Below are positions 3,731 through 29,196 of a stretch of 29,196 nt of DNA, piece by piece; position 1 is the first letter of the stretch, and the number at the start of each line of letters is the position of its first letter. The DNA is taken from the IMG/VR virus record IMGVR_UViG_3300042564_007660, positions 1-29,196 of that record; one strand, given 5' to 3'. The translations under genes were made by a program, and so were the position numbers. This DNA comes from a virus. A model generated the notes under the pieces. The model saw only the letters and a program-made list of their open reading frames with translations, was not told the origin of the DNA and made no database searches.

Positions 3731-6700
3731 ATGTCAACATTATTATCTTTAATAGGTGAAAATGAAAGATTTCGAATAAAACCTAAAAATCTTAGTGAAA
3801 CTGATGATGTCACTGAAAATGGTTTTTCATCTTATTTAGATGATTACGGATTAACAGCTATACAAGATTATAGTGATGATGTTAATACAGAATCTCCATC
3901 TGTATCTGAAGTTGGTGATATTGCATTAAGAGATAGAAAAGATTATAATGTATTCCCTCAAGATACTTACAGTGAAGCAGAAGTTGAAAGAATCGATGTT
4001 TCAGTCATTGATATGCCTGAAATCGATGAAATTAGTGAGGATATATATATTCCAAGGACAGTTTATAACAAATATTCAAATTTAGAATACATTCCGACTG
4101 AAATTCTTGATGCTGTAGGGGTTCAAGGTTACGATGGAACCTATGGTGATTACATTGGAACAATTCTTTCAAATCTTGAAAAAAGAGGTAACAGTCTTGC
4201 AGATATTTTTATTGGTAGATGGAATCTTGATGATTCTCCAATTGGTGTTATTGGAGGTGAAGCATTATATCGTGCATTAAATCAGCAATTTCAAGATGGT
4301 TTTTCAAGAAAAGTTGTTGGAATTATAAACAAAAATATTCTTTCTTTATTAGAAGGAGATGCTTTAATAAGAGAAGATTATGAAATTACTAATCCTAAAA
4401 ATAGGCTTGCAAGAGCTGCAGAATTTGCTGCAAAATTAGTTAGTCTTGAAAATCCAATATCATACCTTCCAGAGGATGTTTTTCAGTTCAATAGAGTTAG
4501 AACTGTTACTAATGGAAAAACGCTTTATATTGGCTCAGATTTGACTTATAAAGACCAAGTGGCACTTATACTGCAATATACAGGGAAGGGTCAAGAGAAG
4601 CAATTATTAAGCCTTGTAGACTTAAATATTTATAAGAATGAAATTGAAGGTAGAACTAGAACAATACGAGCTAATACTTATGCAAATTTCATTAAAGGTG
4701 CTATAAATAGTTTAGATAATTCAGATTTTATAGTTAAGGATGATTTGATTATTCCTTCTTCAAATGGTTATTATGAACCATATGGTATTGTAAGCCGACA
4801 TAAAAATAATGATAAAAGTTTTGGTACAAGAGAAAAACAATTATTCTCTGATGGATTTTGGTTTGTATGGACAACTGACCCTATTGATTTATCGCCTACA
4901 CTTGTAGATGAATCATTATATTCAATTGGGTGGGTGAAAAGACCTGAAGGTAAGAATAATTTTAAACAAAAATCTTTGCTGTATAAAACTCAGCAATTGG
5001 TAAATTCTGGTCAGGCATTTTTGGATTTAAGTAAAAAGGAATTTACAGAAGTTGTTGATGGGAAACCAAAAATAATTTCAAGAGGTGATGCTACAACAGC
5101 ATCTGCAGATGAAACATATGATGATGGAACATTAATTAAACAAGGTGAATATTTCAGGGTTTGGACAAAACAAAGAGGTTATAATAGGCTTGATAGAACT
5201 TTAAGACATCGTGGATTAGATAACGGTGAAAAAAGAAGTGTTCTTAATGATAATGGCATTCCTAATTATGCTCCTACAACAAGAGAAGCTAATAGTTTCA
5301 ATAAACTTACATCTGATACTTTTATAAAGAGGTATATGCTTTCTTTGGAGAATTTGGCTTGGAATGACTATATGGATGATTTACCAGAGTGTGAGCAAGG
5401 ACCTGGCGATCCGCTCACAGGTACAAGAGGTCGTATCATGTGGTTTCCTCCATATGATTTAACTTTTGATGAAACTGTCAATGCATCTTGGAATCCTCAT
5501 GAATTTATTGGTAGAGGAGAAAAAATATATACTTATGTAAATACTGAAAGAACTGGAAATTTGTCCTTTAAAATATTAGTAGACCATCCAGACATAATTC
5601 ATAGCTTATCTGGTGAAAAAACACAATACTGGGAGCGATATTTTAAAGGTGATAAGGCTGTTGAAAAGGATGCTATTAAAAAATATAATGAACTTACTAA
5701 ATTAACTCAAAAGGAATTAGATGAGATAAAAAAGATTCAAAATCCCACTCCTCCGAGATTTAAGAAAGTTCCTGTAGTGGTTAAACCTAAAAAAGAAGTT
5801 GATAATAAGAAATCAGAAGAAACTAAAAAGAAAATTGAAGAAACTAAGAAAAAACAAGAAGAAAATAAAGGTAAGGAAGAACAAGGTGGAAAAGGTGATG
5901 AAACTATAGGGTTAGGTAAACTTCTTTTGAGTGTTTATTTTCCTAATGAAGAAAGAATTGTACCATTGGCTCCTGTAACTTATAATTATTCTTCTGAAGA
6001 TGATAATTATACTGTTGATAAAAGTTTGTCATTAAAATTATTACAAGCTAAAAATTATGGTTATGAAGGTGGGGCTAAAATAGATGGATTAGATTTTCTT
6101 TCTACTGATGGATATATTATAGAAAGTGGTTCAGGTTTGAAATATAAAAAAAAGGGTCAAAATACCGCTGTAAATATAAATTATACTTATTTAAATGGAA
6201 ACCTCGCTTCTTATCAAATTGTTTGTAATGGAGTAAATCCTCCCAAAGGATATAAAGATAGAAATAATCTTGGATTAAATAATGATTTTTATTTTCAATG
6301 GAAATCTAAATTTTTAAGTTTATTAAAAGGTGTCAAAAAAGCAGAAATTACAATAATAGGAAATGCTTCTGGAGCAATACCTGTTGGTATAGATAATAAT
6401 ACTTTATCTTCAGGTAGGGCAAATAATGTAAAAGAATGGTTTGATAAAAATGTTATAAAACTTCTTAATACTCTTGGTCAAGATACTAAAGATATAATTA
6501 TAAAAGTGGAAAGTCAAGGCGATTTAGAAGATGTTGATAAAAAAAAGCGAAGTGAAGAGCTTGAAAAGGCAGGATTAGCTGGAATTCCATTTTGTAAAGA
6601 TTGCGATGAATCTGATAAAGAGGAATGTAAAAAAACCAGAAGGGTTGACATTTTTGTTAAGATATTGGATGAAGTTGTTGTTCCGCCAACACCTGAGCCA

Positions 6701-8083
6701 CCAATACCTCCATTTAATCCTACAGGATCAACTGTAGTTCCTGAAGAAGAACCTGTTGTAACCCCTGATATAGATAATACAATAGAAGACCTTGAAACTT
6801 CTGAAGAATTAGTTCCTGATGATACTCAAGATAATGGAGATCTTGATGGAAATATAATTGAACCTACTATAGACCCTGCAATCCTTCGTAAATTAGTATA
6901 TACTGAATGTGATTTTTTCAAATATTTAGAAACAAATCAGCCTTTTACTTATCAAACGATTAGTGAGAAAATAAAATATTTTACACCAGCATTTCACTCT
7001 ATTACGCCTCAAGGATTAAATTCTAGACTTACGTTTTTACATCAATGTACAAGACAAGGTGATAGTATTGGAATGGATGGTGTAGATAATATTAAAAACC
7101 TTGCATTTGGTAGACCTCCTGTTTGCATCCTAAGAATTGGTGATTTTTTCCATGTGAAAATTATTATTGATACTGTAAGTATAAAATATGCAAATGATAC
7201 TATTAAATGGGATACAAATCCTGAAGGTATAGGAGTTCAGCCAATGTTTGCAGATATTACATTAAATATAAAGATACTTGGTGGTATGTCATTGACTGCA
7301 CCTATAAATAGGCTTCAAAATGCATTATCTTTTAATTTTTATGCTAATACTGAAGTTTATGATGCAAGAGCTGATAGTGTTGTTTTTGAGCAAAAATTTG
7401 ATAAAGATGGTAATTTAGATAAAGATGCAACTTATGGCTCTCTTAAGGCAGCAAAAATTGTCGATGGTATCAAATTATCTTCATTAATCAAATTTAATGA
7501 TGCTCAAAGACAGGCGAGATTGGCAAAAATAAGACAAGATAGCCGTTTGACATTACAAAATTCAACAGATGCCATTGTTCCTACTGAACAAATTCAAAAT
7601 CTTGGTAAAGTTGAATCATTATTAGAATATAAAAAAATTGCAGGGTTGCCTTTAACTGAAAAGGAAAAAATTAATAAAAAGGTTGAAGATGAAACAAAGA
7701 ATAAATTTCAATTTACAAATTTAGCTCCTATTGATAGTAAAAATATAAAGATTACTATGTCTGAAAATTTGCAAGATGAAAAATCTTTATTGAATCAACA
7801 AGCTGGACAAATATATAAAAGTAGATTTAATCCAAAAAATCCTGACGATGTGGCGTATTTGAATAATTTATTGAAAACTGATGACCCACTTCCACCTTTT
7901 GATCCAAAAAATCCTTCATCTGTAAAAAAGTATACGGATTTTGCAGAGTCTATTTCTCAATATACACAAGCAAGTGTAAGCAATCCAAATAGTATTACAG
8001 AAGAAAATCAAAAGAAAACAACTGAAGAATATTTAACAGCATATAGAAAAGTTTGGATAGAATCAAGTTTATTAAGAAAATAA
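3731..8083 (+). CDS. Large multi-domain baseplate/tube-initiator protein with an OmpA-like domain
   Basis: This 1450-residue protein is a mosaic. Residues about 1-540 are unrecognised. Residues 567-627 (IMWFPPYDLTFDE... then FIGRGEKIYTYVNTERTGNLSFKI) look like a phage baseplate beta-domain. A Lys/Glu-rich linker follows at 668-725. Residues 865-977 resemble an OmpA/MotB C-terminal domain: ITIIGNASG, then N889-x2-L892-S893-x2-R896-A897-x2-V900, and a closing RRVDIFV. A Pro-rich linker at 982-1013 leads to a C-terminal domain (about 1050-1220) containing RPPVCILRIGDFFHVKI and a segment ending NFYANTEVYDARAD, which I associate with tube-initiator/baseplate proteins such as T4 gp48/gp54. Its place after the tape measure fits a role joining tube to baseplate. 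The OmpA part may bind peptidoglycan, although the usual Asp of the GHTD motif is Ser880 here (GNAS). The exact T4 counterpart is uncertain. Confidence 0.65.
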   Translation: MSTLLSLIGENERFRIKPKNLSETDDVTENGFSSYLDDYGLTAIQDYSDDVNTESPSVSEVGDIALRDRKDYNVFPQDTYSEAEVERIDVSVIDMPEIDEISEDIYIPRTVYNKYSNLEYIPTEILDAVGVQGYDGTYGDYIGTILSNLEKRGNSLADIFIGRWNLDDSPIGVIGGEALYRALNQQFQDGFSRKVVGIINKNILSLLEGDALIREDYEITNPKNRLARAAEFAAKLVSLENPISYLPEDVFQFNRVRTVTNGKTLYIGSDLTYKDQVALILQYTGKGQEKQLLSLVDLNIYKNEIEGRTRTIRANTYANFIKGAINSLDNSDFIVKDDLIIPSSNGYYEPYGIVSRHKNNDKSFGTREKQLFSDGFWFVWTTDPIDLSPTLVDESLYSIGWVKRPEGKNNFKQKSLLYKTQQLVNSGQAFLDLSKKEFTEVVDGKPKIISRGDATTASADETYDDGTLIKQGEYFRVWTKQRGYNRLDRTLRHRGLDNGEKRSVLNDNGIPNYAPTTREANSFNKLTSDTFIKRYMLSLENLAWNDYMDDLPECEQGPGDPLTGTRGRIMWFPPYDLTFDETVNASWNPHEFIGRGEKIYTYVNTERTGNLSFKILVDHPDIIHSLSGEKTQYWERYFKGDKAVEKDAIKKYNELTKLTQKELDEIKKIQNPTPPRFKKVPVVVKPKKEVDNKKSEETKKKIEETKKKQEENKGKEEQGGKGDETIGLGKLLLSVYFPNEERIVPLAPVTYNYSSEDDNYTVDKSLSLKLLQAKNYGYEGGAKIDGLDFLSTDGYIIESGSGLKYKKKGQNTAVNINYTYLNGNLASYQIVCNGVNPPKGYKDRNNLGLNNDFYFQWKSKFLSLLKGVKKAEITIIGNASGAIPVGIDNNTLSSGRANNVKEWFDKNVIKLLNTLGQDTKDIIIKVESQGDLEDVDKKKRSEELEKAGLAGIPFCKDCDESDKEECKKTRRVDIFVKILDEVVVPPTPEPPIPPFNPTGSTVVPEEEPVVTPDIDNTIEDLETSEELVPDDTQDNGDLDGNIIEPTIDPAILRKLVYTECDFFKYLETNQPFTYQTISEKIKYFTPAFHSITPQGLNSRLTFLHQCTRQGDSIGMDGVDNIKNLAFGRPPVCILRIGDFFHVKIIIDTVSIKYANDTIKWDTNPEGIGVQPMFADITLNIKILGGMSLTAPINRLQNALSFNFYANTEVYDARADSVVFEQKFDKDGNLDKDATYGSLKAAKIVDGIKLSSLIKFNDAQRQARLAKIRQDSRLTLQNSTDAIVPTEQIQNLGKVESLLEYKKIAGLPLTEKEKINKKVEDETKNKFQFTNLAPIDSKNIKITMSENLQDEKSLLNQQAGQIYKSRFNPKNPDDVAYLNNLLKTDDPLPPFDPKNPSSVKKYTDFAESISQYTQASVSNPNSITEENQKKTTEEYLTAYRKVWIESSLLRK

Positions 8084-8087
8084 AAAT

Positions 8088-8405
8088 ATGGATAGTATAA
8101 ACAGATATCAAAAATTCACTTCTAATAGTGAAACCAAAATAATGCCTTTTATTAAAATTCGTAAAAAGGGTAGTGATAAGAGTATCATTTGGAATAAAAG
8201 CACTCATCGTTTAGATGTATTGAGCCAAAGATATTATGGTGTTCCAAGTGAAGGTTGGCTTATAATGATGGCAAATGCACAATATGGTACGGATGAATTT
8301 GATATTCCTGATGGGGAATTAATAAGAATTCCGTATCCATACAAAACCTCTATTCAAGCTTATTTAGATGAGATTGTAAGATTTGATACTAAATTTGGGA
8401 TTTAA
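8088..8405 (+). CDS. Small LysM/gp53-like baseplate wedge protein
   Basis: The 105-residue product contains the pattern HRLDVLSQRYYGVPSEGWLI, then ANAQYG, then DIPDGELIRIPYP. This is the arrangement of LysM-like folds in phage tail proteins (tail protein X and the LysM part of T4 gp53): a start-up helix, a Tyr-Gly turn, a tryptophan helix and a final IRIPYP strand. In gp53-type proteins this fold works as a structural clamp in the baseplate rather than as a cell-wall binder. It begins four bases after the previous stop and precedes the hub-like gene, so the three are probably co-transcribed. The fold assignment is from the motif pattern; which T4 gene it replaces is inferred. Confidence 0.65.
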   Translation: MDSINRYQKFTSNSETKIMPFIKIRKKGSDKSIIWNKSTHRLDVLSQRYYGVPSEGWLIMMANAQYGTDEFDIPDGELIRIPYPYKTSIQAYLDEIVRFDTKFGI

Positions 8406-8433
8406 TTAATTATAAGGTAAATTAAATATAAAA

Positions 8434-11400
8434 ATGGGAGATATAGAAACAATTTCAAATGATAATTTTTTTACAGTTGTTGTAGATCCAAATGGGTTAA
8501 ATAAAGAAAATGTAAGAAATGAAGATTTATTCATTTATGTAGATTTCAGGTCTTTACCAAAAACCAGATCTGTTGTACATACAGATGGTTCAGTTGTTAA
8601 TGAAATTTTTGAAACAAAAGGAATTAGTTTTATTGCATCAAAAAAACAAAATGGTTCTAATTATCTTACAACTGATTATACTAACATAGGTGGTAGTAAT
8701 CCAAAGGAAGAAGAGGGGTTCGGCATTGAAAAAATAAATATTGAGTATGGTAAAGAATTTAATCCTCTTATAAAAATTGAATTTGTAGATGTGAGAGGTG
8801 CAGGGCTTTTAAATGGATATGAATCTGTTGATGATAATGGAATTCTTTCTAATAATTCTACATTTTCTTCGTTTTTTTCTTTACCTTATCCTATATTTAA
8901 ATTAACTGTAAAGGGGTTTTACGGAAAGGCTGTTTCCTATTGTTTACATCTTATGAAATGGACATTGGAATTAGATGGTCAAACTGGTAATTTTAAAATT
9001 GTTGCAGAATTTCAAGGATACACTTTTGCTTTTTTTAATGATATACTATTAAAACATGTTGTGACAATTATAAATACAAGTGTTGGACAGGAGGCTTTAA
9101 AAAAACATAATGTAATTTCAATGTCAGAACTTGTAACTCGCTTAGGAAAACTTACAAGTATTTCTGAAGAATATAAGAAAAATAGTAAAACTTTTGAGGA
9201 GTTAAAATTTATAAATTCATTATTACTTGATAGAATTGAATTTTTATCAAATAGTATTGGTGAAGTTATGACTCTTGCAACAATTTCTTCTTTTGGATCA
9301 CCTCTTCCTATACCCCAATTATCTAACGGTACAGACCAACTTTTTATTAGAGATGTAGGATTGATTTCTGAAGAAAAAATCGAAACTTTAAAGATTATTG
9401 TTGAAGATCTTGGAAAATATATAAATGAGTATAATGATTTTATCAAAACGAATTCATCGAAATATCCTTATGGAAATGAGTATAAAATTGATGATTTTGA
9501 TATTTCTGTTCCTACTATTGCATATCTGATAGATGATAGCACTACAAATATAATTATTGATAAAGTAAAAAAAGATGGTCTTTCGGATAATAATGCTTTA
9601 ACTACAACTTCTGCAATTAGGAGTAGGTTGAACATGCCAAATAATTCCGCAAAAAAATATTATATAGTCGATTTTCATAAATTCAGAAAGGAGGTATCTC
9701 AAATAAAAAGTGATTTATCAAAAAAGAAAAGTGAAATTGAAAAAAAGGTAAATGATGAATTGAATAAAGATATAGAAACTCAATTAAATTTGAAACTTAA
9801 TATTTCTAATGTAATGGAAATTATTCTTGGGAATGTAGAAGCATATTTAAAAGTTGTTTATGATTATGCTGTTGCAGCTGATGACCCTTATATTCAATCT
9901 CAAAGACTAAGTTCAATAAGAGGTGCTGTTACAGATATTCCTATTACTTATGAGAATAGAGTTTTTCCATTTCCATCAACTTTTGATCGAAACACAGGAG
10001 AAGAATTATGGATTGGGGATATTGTGGGAGATGATAATCCATATTTTCCAGAAATTGAACTTGTTAGGTTAAGTTTGAATTCAGTTGTGACTTCCGAAGG
10101 GAAAAATGTAAAAGATAAAGTAAATAATGATTCTGGTACAAGTGTAACTCCTATTGAAGATAGTTGGATACCTTTATATTTAGATGATATAAGTAAACCT
10201 TATTCAAATATAAATAATATAACTTATTCAGGTAACGATATTCCTTTAGAAGTTATATTTGAAATAAAATCAAGACTATTCAAAGCATATTTAAATACCG
10301 CATTTAGCTCGGATACTTTACAAAATTTGGCAAAAACTGATGCATCTTTTACATATTATCAAATAAAAGAACAAGTATTAAAAAATTTATTTAATAATAC
10401 TTCAAATGAAAATTTTATAAATACTTTTGCGACTGAACAGTTAGATGTTTTTAATATTACATCGATACTTGATAATAATACAATTTATATTGGAAGTACT
10501 ACTGATACAAAAGGTACAGTATTAGAAACATTATCTAAAGATATTGATTTTAAAACTGATAGTACTATAATTAGCAGTATTCAAAATCAAGAGAAACGTA
10601 AAATTATCAAAGAAATAAATGATGAAATAGAGGCATTAAAAAAACCTTTAGAAGATATATTAATTCCTAATAAATATAAAAAACTTCATAGGCAAGTTGA
10701 TAGAAATACTTATTTAATTAAGGGGGATATTACAGATTTAATATGGACTGAGGAGGTAAAATCTAATATTAGGAAGTTTTATAAATCTGAAACAAGTAAT
10801 GATTTATTGCAGGAAGTACCTGTTAATTTTACTATATCATCTAAAATAAATGATTTTTCAATTTTTGATGGTCAAATAAATCCTGCAGTAGATTTTTCAA
10901 AACCGATTGATCCGAATAGTAAATTCATAAATATAAAAAGGAATAAAATAGGTTTAGATTTACTTCCTCCAATTGTAGGTGCTACAACTGTAAATACAAA
11001 TAGTAAATCCCTTTTAAATACATATTATTATAAATTTTCTTCACCTCTTAATAAAGCATATTTATTTTTATTAACAACTCCAATAGATAATATTTCAGAT
11101 TTTTATAAAGTATTAGAATTTGGCGGTATGTATAAAATTACCAAAATACAGTTGGCATGGGTTGCAGGTCAATTTTGGAGAGCTAAATTTAAAAAAACTT
11201 ATAATAAAGATATATTTGATGTTATCATAGATAATATAATTGATGCCGTAATAAAAAATTTAATTAATCTTTCTGCAGAACAGATAGTACAAGCAAAAAT
11301 TTTATTAAGTGATTTAGGCAAACAAACTGAAAAATATTTACCAAATTTATCAGATTTTTCACAGGAATTTATTGATAAACTTGCAAAATTTTATGAAAGT

Positions 11401-13794
11401 TGGGCTATAAGATCATATAATATTGATCCAAACTTATTAATAAGTGATTATACAAATCAAGACAAAAGTATAGAAACTACGTTATTAAATTTTTTAGATT
11501 TTTATAGTTCTGGCGCAAATTTTTCAAATAGTGTAAATTTTGAAGGATTTAAATATTATTATGATTTACTTTTAAAAGAATTTACTGAACCCATTGATTT
11601 ACATGTTTTGAGTGTAAACAGTATTCTTTCAGGTGGAAAAAAAATATTTGATGTACCAGAGGAATTTCAACGTTCTTATGCCACTCAATGGATTTCAACT
11701 TTTAAAAAACTTGCATCTCAGAATAATAGAAATGAAATAAAAACTAATAATGACAGTAATACTGGAACAAATGGGTTTTATATCGCAGATAAGGATACTA
11801 AATTGGCAGCATATAAGTATTTTAAAAACTTATATGATAAATGGCTTGGTGGGACAAAAGATGGTAAAGTTTTTAACTCTTGTTCTGGGGGATTGAGCAA
11901 TGTTCCAGGTTCTAAATTAATAGATAGATTTCATTTTGTTGATTCAGCATTTAACCCTATAGGGCATATTGCAGTTGCAAATCCTGAAGTATTAAGAACT
12001 TTAACTAATTCATATGATTTATCTTTATTTATTGTTCTTAAAACTATTGGTGATGAATCAGGTTTTTTAAATTTAATTCTACCTTCATTTGTAAATTATA
12101 AATCTCCTAAAGAAGGATTAGAAATGTGGAAGCCTCAAACTACTATAGAAAATGTAAATTCAGGTGCTGCATATTTTTTTGTTTATACTCAACATCAAGA
12201 TTCTAAAGTTTTAGACATTGGAAAAAAATCTTTTTATGCAAATGATGGATTTGATTTAAGAGGTTCAGATATTGGTAATATCCCTCAACCCTTTAAAAAA
12301 AGAGTTCCTTTGAATATTGATCAAATTCCTAAAGATAAAGATAAGTATAATTTAGTTGTTTTTAGGGTTGGTTATGCGGATCAGAATCAAAACATCTTTA
12401 AATCTATAAAGATGAATCAAACGGAACATAAAGCTTCTATGGAATATGTTCAAGCTTTTATAGAAATGTATGATCCAAAGGGCGGTACAAAACCAATGTA
12501 TAAAAAAGCTAATTTATATAATATATTTTCTTTAAGGCAATATCAGGTAGATGTAACTTGCCTTGGGAATTTAAATTTACATCCTTTGAATTATTTTCAA
12601 TTGGATAATGTACCATTTTATCATGGAGCATATCAAGTTTTAAAAGTAAGTCACTCTATAACTCCTGGTAATGCTGAAACAACATTTTCTGGATGGAGAA
12701 TGCCAAGATTTGTACATCCAGTTTTAAAAACTGTTACAGCGTATATACAAATTCCTTTGTCAGATTCATTATTTAATGAAAAAGAAAGACGTAAACCTGT
12801 ATTTAGGTCATTAGCTGCTAATTACTCCGAAGCAGAAATTGCACCTGATAATTCAGGCTCATCTCCTAATGTAAAATCTTATAAATTAGGTGAAGATATT
12901 GGAACTGCTACATCTGTAACAACTCCAGAATTTACAGGGTCTCTTATAAATATTTCTGGATTTTCTGCAAATGAAATAAAACCTTTGAATCTAATTGAAA
13001 ACGTTAATTCTTTAGATAGATCAGGTTTATGGGCTACGTCAACAATTGCTTCAAAAATTCAAATATCAAGTGCAGAGTACACTTCATTAATTAATAAAGC
13101 AAAGCAATCAAATTCTCCTTCTGCACAAATAATGTTAATTAAACAAACAGTTCCTAACGATAAGCTTGGTACATTGGATAAATATTTAAAAGGGTTAAAT
13201 ACAAAACCATATATTGTTGGTAAATCAAGGGTTGCAAGACCTCTTACTGCTAAAGCAGATCTTGATGCTGCATATGGGTATATTGATTTTAATACTTTGC
13301 CTGCAGATGATGATGTTAATACACCAGGAAGAGCCGAATTTTATTCAAAAAATATAAGAGCTTATACATTACCATTTGGATTAAGAACTGTTTCAAATAA
13401 TGGTTCATTTAGTGGTTTGATCACTAAAGGTTATTTTCATAAAGAAGTCGGTGATTCTTTTGTTTATGCTATGAAAGAAGTTTTAGATTTTTATGGTTTC
13501 GATAATATTGAAAGTTTAGGTATAAATTTAACAGCTGGTACATTTAATTATAGAAGAATGCGAGGTGGAAGTTTACCATCATTACATGCATATGGGGCAG
13601 CTATAGATTTAGGAGCTGGGCAATTTTTAAATGCTGCTAAATGGAGTAAAAAAGATGCATTATTTGGATTACCTGTTTATAGACCTTTTTTAGATATAAT
13701 GGAAAAATGGGGCTGGTATAATCAAGGAAGATATAGAAATAATGATTATATGCACTTCCAAGCAGCAATTTATGGAAATATACAAAATTATTAA
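8434..13794 (+). CDS. Giant baseplate hub-like protein with C-terminal M15 zinc peptidase
   Basis: The protein has 1786 residues. The N-terminal region (about 100-200: PLIKIEFVDVRGAG, FFSLPYPIFKLTVKGFYGKA) is a conserved-looking beta-domain. The middle is mostly unrecognised, with Asn/Lys-rich and coiled segments. Residues about 1326-1434 (YQVDVTCLGNLNLHPLNYF..., YQVLKVSHSITPGN) look like the beta-barrel of hub proteins of the gp27/VgrG/gpD type. The C-terminus is an M15 peptidase: SLHAYGAAIDL supplies H1718 and D1725, and DYMHFQ supplies D1771 and H1774. This gives the His/Asp/His zinc site with a catalytic Asp three residues before the last His, as in T5-type L-alanyl-D-glutamate endopeptidases. 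I infer a tail-tip enzyme that cuts peptidoglycan peptides during injection, doing in one chain what T4 gp27 and gp5 do together. The peptidase call is strong; the hub call is moderate. Confidence 0.75.
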   Translation: MGDIETISNDNFFTVVVDPNGLNKENVRNEDLFIYVDFRSLPKTRSVVHTDGSVVNEIFETKGISFIASKKQNGSNYLTTDYTNIGGSNPKEEEGFGIEKINIEYGKEFNPLIKIEFVDVRGAGLLNGYESVDDNGILSNNSTFSSFFSLPYPIFKLTVKGFYGKAVSYCLHLMKWTLELDGQTGNFKIVAEFQGYTFAFFNDILLKHVVTIINTSVGQEALKKHNVISMSELVTRLGKLTSISEEYKKNSKTFEELKFINSLLLDRIEFLSNSIGEVMTLATISSFGSPLPIPQLSNGTDQLFIRDVGLISEEKIETLKIIVEDLGKYINEYNDFIKTNSSKYPYGNEYKIDDFDISVPTIAYLIDDSTTNIIIDKVKKDGLSDNNALTTTSAIRSRLNMPNNSAKKYYIVDFHKFRKEVSQIKSDLSKKKSEIEKKVNDELNKDIETQLNLKLNISNVMEIILGNVEAYLKVVYDYAVAADDPYIQSQRLSSIRGAVTDIPITYENRVFPFPSTFDRNTGEELWIGDIVGDDNPYFPEIELVRLSLNSVVTSEGKNVKDKVNNDSGTSVTPIEDSWIPLYLDDISKPYSNINNITYSGNDIPLEVIFEIKSRLFKAYLNTAFSSDTLQNLAKTDASFTYYQIKEQVLKNLFNNTSNENFINTFATEQLDVFNITSILDNNTIYIGSTTDTKGTVLETLSKDIDFKTDSTIISSIQNQEKRKIIKEINDEIEALKKPLEDILIPNKYKKLHRQVDRNTYLIKGDITDLIWTEEVKSNIRKFYKSETSNDLLQEVPVNFTISSKINDFSIFDGQINPAVDFSKPIDPNSKFINIKRNKIGLDLLPPIVGATTVNTNSKSLLNTYYYKFSSPLNKAYLFLLTTPIDNISDFYKVLEFGGMYKITKIQLAWVAGQFWRAKFKKTYNKDIFDVIIDNIIDAVIKNLINLSAEQIVQAKILLSDLGKQTEKYLPNLSDFSQEFIDKLAKFYESWAIRSYNIDPNLLISDYTNQDKSIETTLLNFLDFYSSGANFSNSVNFEGFKYYYDLLLKEFTEPIDLHVLSVNSILSGGKKIFDVPEEFQRSYATQWISTFKKLASQNNRNEIKTNNDSNTGTNGFYIADKDTKLAAYKYFKNLYDKWLGGTKDGKVFNSCSGGLSNVPGSKLIDRFHFVDSAFNPIGHIAVANPEVLRTLTNSYDLSLFIVLKTIGDESGFLNLILPSFVNYKSPKEGLEMWKPQTTIENVNSGAAYFFVYTQHQDSKVLDIGKKSFYANDGFDLRGSDIGNIPQPFKKRVPLNIDQIPKDKDKYNLVVFRVGYADQNQNIFKSIKMNQTEHKASMEYVQAFIEMYDPKGGTKPMYKKANLYNIFSLRQYQVDVTCLGNLNLHPLNYFQLDNVPFYHGAYQVLKVSHSITPGNAETTFSGWRMPRFVHPVLKTVTAYIQIPLSDSLFNEKERRKPVFRSLAANYSEAEIAPDNSGSSPNVKSYKLGEDIGTATSVTTPEFTGSLINISGFSANEIKPLNLIENVNSLDRSGLWATSTIASKIQISSAEYTSLINKAKQSNSPSAQIMLIKQTVPNDKLGTLDKYLKGLNTKPYIVGKSRVARPLTAKADLDAAYGYIDFNTLPADDDVNTPGRAEFYSKNIRAYTLPFGLRTVSNNGSFSGLITKGYFHKEVGDSFVYAMKEVLDFYGFDNIESLGINLTAGTFNYRRMRGGSLPSLHAYGAAIDLGAGQFLNAAKWSKKDALFGLPVYRPFLDIMEKWGWYNQGRYRNNDYMHFQAAIYGNIQNY

Positions 13795-22109: not shown

Positions 22110-23060
22110 ATGAAAGAGAAAATTTTAATCGAGAACAAAGATCGTTATGTAATTTATCCAATAAAACATCCTGACATATGGGATTTTTATAAAACAGCAC
22201 AAGCTGCTTTTTGGATTGCTGAATCTGTAGATTTGTCAAAAGACCTTGATGATTGGGAAAAACTGAATGACAATGAGAAGTTTTTTGTCAAAAATGTAAT
22301 ATCATTCTTTGCTGCAAGTGATGGTATAGTAAATCACAATATTGCACACAACTTTATAAATGAAGTTCAATATCCAGAAGCAAGTTTCTTTTATGGATTT
22401 CAAATAGCAATGGAAAATATTCATAATTTGATGTACTCATTGTTAATTGATACATATGTAAAAGATATCGATGAAAGAGATGAATGTTTTAAAGCAATCG
22501 AAAAATTACCTATTGTAAAAAAGAAAGCTGAATGGGCACTCAAATGGATTGATTCAGATTCTTTTGCTGAAAGATTGATTGCATTTGCTGCAGTTGAAGG
22601 TATATTTTTCTCTGGTTCATTCTGCTCAATCTTTTGGTTAAAATCAAGAGGTCTTATGCCAGGACTTTGCCAAGCGAATTCATATATCAGCAAAGATGAA
22701 GCGTTACACACCGATTTTGCAATTCATCTTTACAATAACCATGTAGAATATAAAGTTTCAGAAGAAAGAATAAAAGAAATCATTCTTTCAGCGTATGAAA
22801 TTGAAAAAGAATTTATAACTGATGCACTTCCAGTTTCACTCATAGGGATGAATCAAAACCTTATGACACAATATATCCAATTTGTAACAGATCAACTCTT
22901 GATTCAATTTAGATGTAAACCTGTTTTCAATGTAAGACAACCATTTGACTTCATGATGCAGATTGCAATGAAAGCCAAACAAAACTTTTTTGAAGGAAGA
23001 CCTACTGAATACAAAAAAGCAGATTTATCAGGCTCAATCTCATTTGATGAAGAATTTTAA
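22110..23060 (+). CDS. nrdB: Class I ribonucleotide reductase small subunit
   Basis: All di-iron ligands are present with the family's spacing: D71 (FFAASDGIV), E102 and H105 (AMENIHNLMYS), E163 (AAVEGIFF), E197 and H200 (SKDEALHTDF). The radical tyrosine is Y109, four residues after H105 as in E. coli Y122. The MYSLLIDTYV context is closer to the eukaryote-like R2 type than to E. coli NrdB. The C-terminus (GSISFDEEF) is the acidic/aromatic tail that docks on the large subunit. At 316 residues it is slightly shorter than many R2 proteins. It makes the radical for dNTP synthesis and is followed 23 bases later by nrdA, the reverse of the common nrdAB order. Confidence 0.95.
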   Translation: MKEKILIENKDRYVIYPIKHPDIWDFYKTAQAAFWIAESVDLSKDLDDWEKLNDNEKFFVKNVISFFAASDGIVNHNIAHNFINEVQYPEASFFYGFQIAMENIHNLMYSLLIDTYVKDIDERDECFKAIEKLPIVKKKAEWALKWIDSDSFAERLIAFAAVEGIFFSGSFCSIFWLKSRGLMPGLCQANSYISKDEALHTDFAIHLYNNHVEYKVSEERIKEIILSAYEIEKEFITDALPVSLIGMNQNLMTQYIQFVTDQLLIQFRCKPVFNVRQPFDFMMQIAMKAKQNFFEGRPTEYKKADLSGSISFDEEF

Positions 23061-23083
23061 TAACAAATAAACCAAAGAAATTT

Positions 23084-25399
23084 ATGAACAAAATGGAAAT
23101 CGTTAAAAGGAACGGAAGTACAATGGAGTTTAATCCATCTAAAATATTGACAAGGATAAAAAAACAATCTGAAGAATTGAAAGTAAATCCTGATGAATTA
23201 TTTATTAAGGTTACTCAAGGAATTGGAGATGGTATCAGTACAAATCAAATTGATGATTTAATTGCTATTACTTCAGATTCTTTGTCACATAAGCATCCAG
23301 ACTATTCAAAATTGGCTGCAAACATCTTTATATCAAGACTTCATAAGGAAACTGAAGAAAATTATTTTAAGCTTATAAAGAGGTTAAAAAACAATGGAAT
23401 TGTTAATGAAACCTTATATAACAAAGTAAAGGAAAATTTTGAAGTTATACAAAAAGCTATTGATTATAGTCGTGATTATATGTTTGACTATTTTGCATGC
23501 TCTCGTTTGAAAGAAATTTACCTTCTTAAGGAAAGAGATGAAATTGTCGAAAGACCACAACATATGTACATGAGAGTTGCTTTGACTGTTACAGAAACAA
23601 TTGAAGATGCACTTAAATATTACGAGTTAGTTTCAACACATAAAATTTCCCCTGCAACCCCAATCTCGATTAATGCTGGGACAAATGATCAAAGCATGAT
23701 TTCTTGCAATTTGACGATGAACAAAGGAGATAATACACCAGATTTGTTAAAAACTCTTGCGAATATTTCTATATCTTCTTCAAGAGCTGAAGGAATAGGT
23801 CTTGCATTACATAATATAAGAAGTAAAGAATCTTATGTTGGTAAAGGTGGAGGAAAAGCAGGTGGTCTTTTGAAGTATATGAAAGTTGTTAATGAATCCT
23901 TAAGATTTTGGAATCAAAAAGGTAAAAGACCAGGTGCTGCAGCAGTTTATTTAGAACCTTGGCATAAAGATGTAGCAGACCTTATTGAAATAAGAAAAGA
24001 AGGGGCTGATGAACTTAGAGCAAGAGATATGTTTGCTGCACTTTGGATTCCTGACAATTTTATGAGAGCTGTGGAATCTGATGGAGATTGGTATTTGTTC
24101 TGCCCAAATGATCTTCTTAAGAATGGAATAAAACCTCTTTGGGAAGTCTATGGTGAAGAGTATGAAGTAGAGTATAATAAAGCTGTTTCATTGGGTATCG
24201 GTAATAAAATTAAAGCTCAAAGTCTTTGGAAGAAAATTCTTGAGGCTCAGATTGAGACAGGTGTGCCTTATATGACATACAAAGACCATGTTAATCATAA
24301 AAGTAATCAGCAGAATATTGGTACTATCAAATCTTCAAATTTATGCGCAGAGATTAACTTATATAGCGATGCTGAAACTACAGCACAATGCGTTCTTTCT
24401 TCATTAGTATTACAGAAATTTGTCAATAATAAAGTTTACGATTTCAAAGGATTATATGATGCTGCATATGAAGTTGTAAAATCTTTAAACGTTTTAATTG
24501 ATGTAAACGATTTTTCAACTGAAGAAGCTAGAAAGGGTGCAACTGAACAAAGAGCTTTAGCAATAGGTGTTCAAGGTCTTGCAGATACTTTTGCATTGAT
24601 GGGATTTCCATTTACTTCTGAAGAAGCTAAAAAATTGAATAAAGATATATTTGAAACAATTTATTATGCTTCATTGAAATCTTCATGTGATTTAGCAAAA
24701 GAAAAAGATGAAACTTATAAGTTCTTCAAAGATTCACCATTTTCTAAAGGAATTTTACAATATGACATGTGGAATGTAACAGAATTATCTGGTCTTTGGG
24801 ATTGGGATTCTTTGAAAGAAGATATCGTAAAATACGGTGTCATGAATTCAACTTTAACTTCAACTATGCCAACAGCATCAAGTGCATCAATTATTGGCAG
24901 CACTGAAGCAATTGAGCCATTTTTCAGTAACATGTATATCAGAAAAGTTATTGGTGGAGAGCATATCGTTATTAACAAATATTTGATACAAGATTTGGAA
25001 GAATTAAGTCTTTGGAATGAATACATCAAAACAGAAATTATAAAAAATGATGGTTCTATCCAGGATATAAATGTGATTCCTCAAGAAATCAGAGAAAAGT
25101 ATAAGACTGTTTATGAAATTTCTCAAAAGGAACTTATAAATATGTCTGCAGAACGTGCGCCTTTTATCGATCAATCTCAAAGTTTGAACATCTTTATGAA
25201 GAATCCAACTGTAGGCAAACTAACTTCTTCACATTTTCATGGATGGAGGCTCGGATTGAAAACTGGGCAATATTATCTTAGAACAGATGCAATCACAATG
25301 TCAAGAAAACAATTGGCAATTGACGTTAAAACTGAAAATGAAGACACGTTAAAGAAACCTGAAAATTCACCTTTTGAATGTTTTGGATGTTCGGCATAA
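23084..25399 (+). CDS. nrdA: Class I ribonucleotide reductase large subunit
   Basis: This 771-residue protein carries an N-terminal ATP-cone-like region (about 5-90, VKRNGSTMEFNPSKILTRI), so allosteric overall activity control is likely. Catalytic residues are present: redox cysteine C208 (MISCNLTMN), thiyl cysteine and glutamate C421 and E423 (NLCAEI), second redox cysteine C436 (AQCVLSS), and the Tyr pair in GQYYLRTDA for radical transfer. The C-terminal CxxC shuttle (CFGCSA, C766 and C769) takes reducing power from thioredoxin or glutaredoxin. Length matches class Ia R1 enzymes. With nrdB it would supply dNTPs for phage replication. No intron or inserted endonuclease interrupts it. Confidence 0.96.
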   Translation: MNKMEIVKRNGSTMEFNPSKILTRIKKQSEELKVNPDELFIKVTQGIGDGISTNQIDDLIAITSDSLSHKHPDYSKLAANIFISRLHKETEENYFKLIKRLKNNGIVNETLYNKVKENFEVIQKAIDYSRDYMFDYFACSRLKEIYLLKERDEIVERPQHMYMRVALTVTETIEDALKYYELVSTHKISPATPISINAGTNDQSMISCNLTMNKGDNTPDLLKTLANISISSSRAEGIGLALHNIRSKESYVGKGGGKAGGLLKYMKVVNESLRFWNQKGKRPGAAAVYLEPWHKDVADLIEIRKEGADELRARDMFAALWIPDNFMRAVESDGDWYLFCPNDLLKNGIKPLWEVYGEEYEVEYNKAVSLGIGNKIKAQSLWKKILEAQIETGVPYMTYKDHVNHKSNQQNIGTIKSSNLCAEINLYSDAETTAQCVLSSLVLQKFVNNKVYDFKGLYDAAYEVVKSLNVLIDVNDFSTEEARKGATEQRALAIGVQGLADTFALMGFPFTSEEAKKLNKDIFETIYYASLKSSCDLAKEKDETYKFFKDSPFSKGILQYDMWNVTELSGLWDWDSLKEDIVKYGVMNSTLTSTMPTASSASIIGSTEAIEPFFSNMYIRKVIGGEHIVINKYLIQDLEELSLWNEYIKTEIIKNDGSIQDINVIPQEIREKYKTVYEISQKELINMSAERAPFIDQSQSLNIFMKNPTVGKLTSSHFHGWRLGLKTGQYYLRTDAITMSRKQLAIDVKTENEDTLKKPENSPFECFGCSA

Positions 25400-26664: not shown

Positions 26665-27363
26665 TCAATAGTAATAATTAGTATTTTTACTTTGGGTATA
26701 TTGTTTTGTATTAACATCCATCATAGTCAATTTACCACCACATTTTATACCTGTATCAACATTGATAAGGTTTGATACAAAATCAGGTTTAAAATTTCTT
26801 GTTGTAGAGTGACCGATAAAAATTTCATCGATAATTATTCCTGTGTCTTTAAACGATACAGGAATTTTTCTTTTTTGTTGATGATAAGTCTTTGCAAGGG
26901 AGTAAAGTTTTCTATTCAAAGCAAACTTTCTTCTTCTTTGGGAATCTATAGCTCTCTTAGGGTTAAATCCTCCATGTAAGAAGATTTTGTTATCATGTAC
27001 ATGATAGTAGTCAGCTTTTGAAAAATATCTCTTTAGATTGGAAATTATGTCAGGATTATTTAATTTCTCAATAGTGCTTGCTCCTCCTGAAGGAATCCAT
27101 TCTTCATTTATTGTTCCATATTTAAGAAACTCTATAAGGAAAAAATCGTGATTTCCTATGATGGGTATAAAGTTGTCAAAAGACAATAACAGTTCTAAGC
27201 ATTTGTCAAAATCAGGTAGTCCATCAGCTAAGTCACCAATGAAGATTATTTTATCATCACTTCTATTAACATTCCCTTTGGTTAATAAGTCTTCCAAAGG
27301 TAAATAAGCACCATGTATATCACCTATAACATAAGTCTTAAACCGCTTTGCTTTCTTCTTCAA
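26665..27363 (-). CDS. Calcineurin-like metallophosphoesterase
   Basis: The 232-residue protein has the two-metal phosphoesterase motifs in order: GDIHG (residues 14-18, D15 and H17), GDLADGLPD (D44), GNHD (70-73), IFLHGGFNP and FIGHSTT. It is close in length to lambda phosphatase (221 residues) but lacks the Arg of the usual GDxxDRG, so the substrate may be a nucleotide or another small phosphoester rather than phosphoprotein. The reading frame has no ATG in use. It starts at a TTG eight residues before the first conserved strand, and in the same frame the sequence just upstream reads ATG AAA TAG. The gene lies 24 bases after the helicase gene stop and is probably co-transcribed with it. A clean TTG start or a damaged ATG start are both possible. 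Confidence 0.8.
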   Translation of the reverse strand: MKKKAKRFKTYVIGDIHGAYLPLEDLLTKGNVNRSDDKIIFIGDLADGLPDFDKCLELLLSFDNFIPIIGNHDFFLIEFLKYGTINEEWIPSGGASTIEKLNNPDIISNLKRYFSKADYYHVHDNKIFLHGGFNPKRAIDSQRRRKFALNRKLYSLAKTYHQQKRKIPVSFKDTGIIIDEIFIGHSTTRNFKPDFVSNLINVDTGIKCGGKLTMMDVNTKQYTQSKNTNYYY

Positions 27364-27387
27364 AAAATGCTATTTCATATAAATAGC

Positions 27388-29196
27388 TTAGAACGGTTCA
27401 AATTCTTTGGTCATATTCATATAATAGTTTAAATCTTCTGATGAATCTTTAAGTTGACATTGGATAAGCTCTTCTTCAGTCATATCTTCATAATGCTTAT
27501 TAGATATGTCAATTTTTCTTAAAGGCTGGATTTCATATCCTTCAATTTCTTTAGGATACATAGAAGCAAATTTATACAAATACTCATTTCCGCTCTTAAT
27601 CTTTTTAACCCCAATTCTTTGGAAATCAAAATAGTCATGGACTAATTTTATAGCATTCCTAGATTCGAGTTTATACATTCCAAGAATTGGAAGCTTACTT
27701 CTTAATTCATTTATTTTTCTAGTAATTTCTGTATTTGATATAACAGCGTTTTCTTCAAACTTTTTATTAGCCCATTCTTCAAATTTCCAAGTGAAAGTTG
27801 CGACTTCATTAACAACTTTTATACCTCGTATAGCATAAAACAACCCTGCGTTTTCAAGCCTTTCTTCGACATCAAAATATGATTTGATAATTTCTAAAGT
27901 TCGATGTTCACTTTCTGAAGAAATATTTAGCTTTCTAAAGATGTCATTTAATATTTTGTTAATATCTGAAATGGTATAAAGTACAAAGGAGCCTGTGGCT
28001 TTTTCTTTCTCACGATTTTTCTTATAGAATTTTATAAGATGTTTGGCAGTTTCTGATGAATTGTCTACAGCCTTACTAAAAGCATTAATTTTTTTAGTTA
28101 TTTGAACATTAATTTGTCTAACAATCTTACTCCAAATTCTGTCACTCATATTATACTCTTTAATCCATTTTTCAACAAGTTCACATGAATCTTCAAAAGA
28201 TAACGAGTTACATAAATATTTTATTTTTGTCCTTAGTTTTACTTGATATTGAGCCCTTGGAAGTGATTCAAGGTTAAATACAACATCATCTTCTACTTTA
28301 TTACAACATTCAACCTCTCCTTCGATTTTTATTTCTTCAAGGATTTTCAATACATCTTGAACAAGCATTTCTTTCCTTTCAGATTTCAATGTCTTAAGAT
28401 TTGACTGTTCCTCTGGATGTATTTCCTCAAGAACAAACATTTCTTCTTTAAACTGCCAATTATATTCATAAAGCAATACCTTCATAAATTCAAAATTCTT
28501 GTTGGCATAGCGTTTTTCTTCAATATATGCCATATTTGCTATACTCAAATAGTCAATTTCCCAAACTCCATCCCTAACTCTATAAAGTTTACTTTTACCA
28601 AATAGTTGTTGATTGAATACTTTTATAGCAGATTTATAACTTACACTATCACCTGTTACATATGCCTTATTGAAAAGCTCTTTTCCAATATTGGCATTTT
28701 TAATATAGTTCTCTTGAAGATTAACAATATCGATGTGGTCAGTTTCAGACATATCTTCTGAATCCAATGGCTTGTAAACGTAAATCATTGAGTCATTCTC
28801 AACACTTTTCGTAAAAATGTTTCTCAATCGATTTACCATTTGCTCCATATTTGTAGCACTTTCGGCTGTCATAAAATGAACCGATTTAAAATCATTATTA
28901 TAGATATTAACACCCTCTACAATAACTGAAGTACAAATGACAATATCAACATTATCTCTGATTAATTCCTTTGTTGTGAGCATAGTAAAATCCTCACTAT
29001 TTTTTTCATCAGCATTAATACATACAATACGATCCTTCTTCCAACCTTTCATCACCAAATAATCAATCAACTCACCCATTTTACCTTCTTCCTTTTTATT
29101 CTGAAGATAAATCAGATTTTTACCACTTCTACTAAGATTTTTTTCAATAGCAAATAAAATATTGTTATATCTTACAGGAGTGCAATATTTGATTGG
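27388..29196 (-). CDS. SF2 helicase C-terminal part, cut by the window edge
   Basis: The frame is open to the last base of the window, giving 602 residues without the N-terminus. An internal ATG at 29079 is not the real start, because the upstream codons continue helicase-like sequence (KNLIYLQNKKE). Visible are motif IV-like KNLIYLQN, motif V-like DIVICTSVIVEGVNI and motif VI-like QMVNRLRN, the second RecA lobe of superfamily 2 helicases. The pattern VEGVNI...NMEQMVNRLR is the kind seen in origin-binding or DNA-repair helicases of large viruses. A long C-terminal extension of about 450 residues follows with no recognised domain but a possible winged-helix-like end (residues after RKINELRSKL). 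Walker A and B lie outside the window. It would be transcribed leftward with the phosphoesterase. Confidence 0.75.
   Translation of the reverse strand, partial: PIKYCTPVRYNNILFAIEKNLSRSGKNLIYLQNKKEEGKMGELIDYLVMKGWKKDRIVCINADEKNSEDFTMLTTKELIRDNVDIVICTSVIVEGVNIYNNDFKSVHFMTAESATNMEQMVNRLRNIFTKSVENDSMIYVYKPLDSEDMSETDHIDIVNLQENYIKNANIGKELFNKAYVTGDSVSYKSAIKVFNQQLFGKSKLYRVRDGVWEIDYLSIANMAYIEEKRYANKNFEFMKVLLYEYNWQFKEEMFVLEEIHPEEQSNLKTLKSERKEMLVQDVLKILEEIKIEGEVECCNKVEDDVVFNLESLPRAQYQVKLRTKIKYLCNSLSFEDSCELVEKWIKEYNMSDRIWSKIVRQINVQITKKINAFSKAVDNSSETAKHLIKFYKKNREKEKATGSFVLYTISDINKILNDIFRKLNISSESEHRTLEIIKSYFDVEERLENAGLFYAIRGIKVVNEVATFTWKFEEWANKKFEENAVISNTEITRKINELRSKLPILGMYKLESRNAIKLVHDYFDFQRIGVKKIKSGNEYLYKFASMYPKEIEGYEIQPLRKIDISNKHYEDMTEEELIQCQLKDSSEDLNYYMNMTKEFEPF

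Follow-up and report, generated by a model that had tools for sequence, protein, structure and literature searches.

An OmpA/Pal/MotB-fold domain nested within a tube-initiator-like baseplate protein of contractile-tailed phages

Domains of the OmpA/Pal/MotB kind are used by bacteria to hold the cell wall, and an Asp in their ligand pocket coordinates the amine of DAP. Known members of the PF00691 family (for example, Acinetobacter baumannii OmpA, 3TD3-3TD5; Pal, 1OAP and 2HQS; TagL) belong to secreted or membrane-anchored cellular proteins. In TagL, four residues touch DAP (Asp486, Asn494, Leu497 and Arg501), and cell-wall binding is lost when Asn494, Leu497 or Arg501 is mutated (PMC8253398). 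Domain 3 of Tp0624 from Treponema pallidum also has the OmpA fold and keeps the Arg, but Ala stands in place of the Asp and Glu/Gln in place of the Asn, and no DAP binding was seen by soaking or calorimetry (PMC5104382). In contractile systems, the wall-binding type fold found attached to the tube-initiator beta-barrel is LysM, located on the C-terminal side or in a helix-rich domain of Alg7, Afp7/Pvc7 and Mu gp43; in Alg7, Mu gp43 and A-1(L) gp16, LysM joins the hub or tube initiator to the wedges (PMC8894135, PMC11915804, PMC10966104). That LysM serves as a connector there raises the question of why contractile baseplates carry wall-binding folds. Here we describe a phage family in which an unrelated wall-binding fold, that of OmpA, is nested in the core of a tube-initiator-like protein, while a LysM-like protein is encoded separately beside it. 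Literature searches on OmpA domains in baseplates led solely to papers on type VI secretion and to other unrelated work, and no earlier description turned up in searches on tube initiators and on huge phages.

The window, that is, the whole stretch of DNA analysed, is a 29,196-base viral contig. Judging from profile matches and gene positions, it encodes a contractile-tail gene set, including a tail tube gene (phrog_4542), a gp26-like hub protein gene (phrog_150), a likely tape measure gene and a gene for a gp25-like wedge protein. The ORF of interest (3731-8083, plus strand) lies between the likely tape measure gene and a gp53-like wedge protein gene and encodes a 1450-residue protein, which gene position and synteny mark as tube-initiator/baseplate-like; the sequence-only reading of this DNA had already placed an OmpA/MotB-type domain in a phage baseplate protein, and a contractile-tail baseplate as its setting is well supported. 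The wedge protein that follows is small (105 residues; 8088-8405, plus strand; phrog_7145, E = 2.2e-6), and its LysM-like label derives from a sequence pattern and not from a profile match. A LysM-like wedge gene of the same kind follows the OmpA-bearing gene in nearly all loci of relatives, and we therefore rejected the idea that the OmpA-like domain replaces a LysM connector. Next comes a 1786-residue protein (8434-13794, plus strand) that, given its gene position, is likely a baseplate hub protein. It resembles phage endolysins (phrog_17001, E = 1.7e-25) and ends in an M15, D-Ala-D-Ala carboxypeptidase-like peptidase domain (PF13539, E = 1.1e-5, residues 1715-1776). Further downstream, two ORFs (22110-25399) resemble the two subunits of a ribonucleotide reductase, the large one being nearest to its counterparts in Tenacibaculum and Cellulophaga phages, in agreement with a Bacteroidota host. 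On the minus strand (26665-29196), the sequence looks by eye like genes for a phosphoesterase of the calcineurin type and for a helicase-like protein that runs off the contig end.

Whole-protein scans of the 1450-residue protein against Pfam, PHROGs and NCBIfam gave no useful match, and its assignment comes from the conserved core, the two halves of which flank the OmpA-like domain. The N-terminal half (about residues 538-618; 5342-5584, plus strand; MWFPPY...IGRGExIYTY...VDHP) is near-invariant in 59 relatives and beta-rich, with pLDDT mostly 70-86 in an AlphaFold model of residues 529-1221 built with 59 aligned sequences. The C-terminal half (residues 1057-1216; 6899-7378, plus strand; RLTFLHQCTRQG) likewise consists of near-invariant columns. 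One relative, L075 (protein at 4595-8614 of its contig), retains the two halves of the core, with the LysM-like gene after it, but has no OmpA insert, and is the sole clear case of such natural absence among about 70 relatives. Its model is of modest confidence (mean pLDDT 60.5), and its top PDB matches are mostly tube initiators or tail-tube proteins (Afp7, a Streptomyces CIS, Pvc7 and A-1(L) initiators), each of them weak taken individually (best E = 0.037, with low TM-scores). In the BFVD viral library the core matched CIS tube proteins, tail-tube caps and one 458-residue entry, which is probably RM378 p067 as judged by protein length. Flavobacterium phage immuto (immuto35A_235) and Rhodothermus phage RM378 (Rm378p067) share the gene order, with proteins of 716 and 458 residues, respectively, occupying the same slot before a small and then a large protein. 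Both have a recognisable core in profile alignments (hhalign E = 5e-5 for immuto, with which the N-terminal half aligns, and 0.005 for RM378), and neither homologue gave an OmpA match. Insertion of the domain thus separates about 70 distinct relatives from L075 and the immuto and RM378 homologues. The gene also stands where a tube-initiator gene is expected, beside the wedge and hub genes of the tail cluster. Given this gene order and the fold resemblance of the core, identification of the 1450-residue protein as a tube initiator of the Afp7/Pvc7/Alg7 type, the counterpart of the T4 tail-tube cap, is well supported but not proven.

We then asked how firmly the inserted domain belongs to the OmpA family. 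PF00691 was not listed at E ≤ 1 when all 1450 residues were scanned, and the domain of the window protein alone reached E = 0.006 and 17.3 bits, below the cut-off of 27.2. Sub-threshold single-sequence matches of this kind could also come from a fast-evolving linker domain with an accidental NxxLSxxRA motif, and the question was therefore settled by family-level evidence. Scanned singly, the inserts of 37 of 57 relatives matched PF00691 at E ≤ 0.05 (best 1.2e-7), and matches to any other family came from at most two of the 57, so that the profile check, which falls short for the window protein by itself, succeeds for the family. Early PDB searches, with a profile of four close relatives (nothing found) or with six close full-length relatives (chance matches only), offered too little diversity, whereas with a profile of the 57 inserts the matches at E ≤ 1 comprised 55 distinct chains of solved structures (best 2.6e-9), nearly all of them OmpA, Pal, YfiB, MotB, MotY, TssL or similar. 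As a control, an HMM was made from 27 OmpA domains of the GHTD type, all of them cellular. At E ≤ 1e-3 it recognised 41 of the 68 inserts, none of 680 shuffled inserts and none of the N-terminal (0/68) or C-terminal (0/67) parts of the same proteins. The AlphaFold model shows an OmpA fold at pLDDT ~95 across residues 728-978, with a dip near residues 829-838, and its best 15 PDB fold matches all have this fold (OmpA, MotB, TssL, PorE and Dot; probability 0.94-1.00). A. baumannii OmpA and Helicobacter pylori MotB lead these matches, the modest E-values of which (1.3e-3 and up) probably reflect the long query and an extra segment. Profile, structure and control results together rule out accidental resemblance, which we regard as vanishingly improbable; residues 728-978 are a genuine OmpA/Pal/MotB-fold domain, as the sequence-only reading had proposed, and no other family fits better.

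The domain (5912-6664, plus strand) is larger than first supposed: it begins at about residue 728 (window position 5912) and not at residue 865, since strand b1 lies 120 residues upstream, split off by an extra segment. Strand b1 (residues 730-736) is followed by a conserved YFPN motif ending at residue 739 (5918-5947 for both, plus strand). The extra segment of about 110 residues (5948-6280, plus strand), absent from canonical OmpA domains and predicted mostly at high confidence, leads to helix a1 (851-865), after which b2 (871-877), a2 (889-914), b3 (922-928), a3 (932-946) and b4 (971-978) complete a b-a-b-a-b-a-b arrangement with the fold and element order of the PF00691 family. All residues singled out earlier are present: GNAS (877-880; 6359-6370, plus strand), the counterpart of GHTD with Ser880 for Asp; the N889xxL892SxxR896A signature at the start of helix a2 (6395-6421, plus strand), followed by V900; the C955xxC958...C966 loop (6593-6628, plus strand); and RRVDIFV (970-976; 6638-6658, plus strand) in the last strand b4, with R970 in 58 of 59 members. 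The signature and the RRV of the last strand are common to cellular and phage domains. The six closest relatives all keep C955, C958 and C966, and cysteine is also recurrent near residue 832 (C832; span 6224-6628); these cysteines might form a metal site or disulfides. The flanking stretches are also as described from the sequence, Lys/Glu-rich before the domain (about residues 645-725; 5663-5905, plus strand) and Pro-rich after it (about 983-1050; 6677-6880, plus strand); the second is acidic as well. Both linkers have pLDDT ~40-50, fall within the low-confidence stretches that flank the domain in the model (about 619-725 and 983-1050) and are predicted to be disordered.

Used as a query against viral contigs, the conserved C-terminal half of the core found 110 relatives; 80 of these were kept and, with closer relatives, gave 71 distinct proteins. 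The OmpA-like domain lies between the two core halves in about 70 distinct relatives, on viral contigs of up to 413 kb. Five members (L022, L044, L049, L054 and L082) are on contigs of 363-413 kb, which indicates that the gene set belongs partly to very large phages. Cultured phage records contain next to nothing of this family: with two of its members as queries, tblastn gave no match among 50,697 records at E limits of 0.01 and 1, and only weak matches (E 3-4) pointed to immuto and RM378. A first scan of genome contigs likewise returned nothing, and a scan with a better alignment recovered six loci, Bacteroidales metagenome-assembled genomes (MAGs) among them. From these few genome contigs, which may be unintegrated phage sequence, we infer hosts in Paludibacteraceae, Bacteroidales, Bacteroidota and others. 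One further member (L097) comes from a single-cell genome of Prochlorococcus, where its contig measures 51 kb, unlike the Bacteroidota hosts suggested elsewhere, and is possibly a co-sorted virus. Within the family, core and OmpA identities correlate (Spearman 0.62 over 1653 pairs; 0 of 500 permutations as high), which indicates that the domain has mostly been inherited vertically, along with its protein, and the OmpA part diverges much faster (mean pairwise identity 29% versus 62% for the core). A crude tree of phage and cellular OmpA domains, which are too short for the purpose, does not settle the origin of the phage domain.

Against this divergence, the near-invariant insert columns are A879, N889, L892, R896 and R970. 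The equivalents of three TagL contacts are retained almost without exception (Asn889 in 57/58, Leu892 in 57/58 and Arg896 in 58/58 members), whereas the position of the Asp holds Ser in 49, Asn in four and Thr in three of 59 members and never Asp; the replacement noticed at Ser880 is thus fixed in the whole phage family. Consequently, the canonical DAP-binding motif TD(x)7NxxLSxxRA occurs in 0 of 59 members with respect to its Asp, although its NxxLSxxRA part is present. Some members read GFASPQG or SYASPQG at the GHTDxxG site. Cellular OmpA domains in three MAGs holding family members have Asp in 27 of 29 cases, and the other two, in Bacteroidales proteins of the outer-membrane type (L114 and L117), read GYASPEG and keep the Asn, Leu and Arg; the Asp-to-Ser change therefore occurs in cells too, and these cellular domains fall outside the phage group in the crude tree. 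That the domain binds DAP and anchors the tail exactly as Pal/OmpA anchors the outer membrane would accord with the shared fold and with three of the four DAP contacts. However, the residue for the DAP amine is missing in 59 of 59 members, a fixed loss that speaks against canonical DAP binding, as does the Asp-less Tp0624 precedent, and we consider such anchoring improbable.

What, then, might the domain do? From sequence and model evidence, we tentatively favour, at somewhat less than an even chance, a role as a tethered tail-tip dock on wall peptides with a non-canonical pocket. Nested between the tube-initiator halves, the domain would hang outside the ring at the tail tip on its disordered linkers, leaving the pocket exposed. 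Once the tube tip and the hub with its M15 peptidase arrive in the periplasm, it would dock on peptidoglycan stem peptides through the retained Asn/Leu/Arg pocket, head-group recognition being altered by the Asp-to-Ser change, and the docked domain may hold the tip steady or in place during cleavage by the peptidase. Consistent with such docking are the centring of conservation on the pocket although the OmpA part averages far lower identity than the core, the correspondence of Asn, Leu and Arg to TagL contacts needed for wall binding (PMC8253398), the flexible linkers on both sides, the M15 peptidase in the neighbouring gene and the resemblance of the core to tube initiators. Weighing against it, the Asp is never present and Tp0624 offers an Asp-less precedent (PMC5104382), the Asn and Leu are perhaps kept for the fold alone, L075 manages without the domain, and the core assignment comes from weak single fold matches. 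LysM, moreover, is also a wall-binding fold and yet serves as a baseplate connector (PMC8894135, PMC11915804, PMC10966104).

This last precedent, together with the fixed loss of Asp and the lack of DAP binding by Tp0624 (PMC5104382), makes a strong rival of a purely structural role, to which we assign a substantial chance, well above one in four. Here the OmpA-like domain would be a protein-docking piece with no peptidoglycan binding. During assembly it would connect the ring of the tube initiator with the wedges, the sheath initiator or chaperones, much as LysM does between hub or tube initiator and wedges in Alg7, Mu gp43 and A-1(L) gp16 (PMC8894135, PMC11915804, PMC10966104). However, an interface with conserved baseplate proteins would not be expected to diverge so much faster than the core, and the neighbouring gene already supplies a LysM-like connector. 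The long disordered linkers and the conserved pocket Asn, Leu and Arg also speak against a structural link. A tethered, fast-evolving domain with little conserved but its pocket is easier to reconcile with ligand binding than with a fixed protein interface, and it is on this basis that we prefer wall docking.

With most of the ligand pocket conserved and the rest divergent, wall binding and a re-used scaffold can be told apart with one purified domain. Scarce as it is among cultured phages, the family points to a set of structural genes from phages that are poorly known and in part very large. It may also represent, although we think this rather unlikely, a large clade of contractile phages with a wall-gripping OmpA domain at the tail tip, in which a new, Asp-free specificity for another stem-peptide head group would position the tip and its M15 peptidase during penetration.
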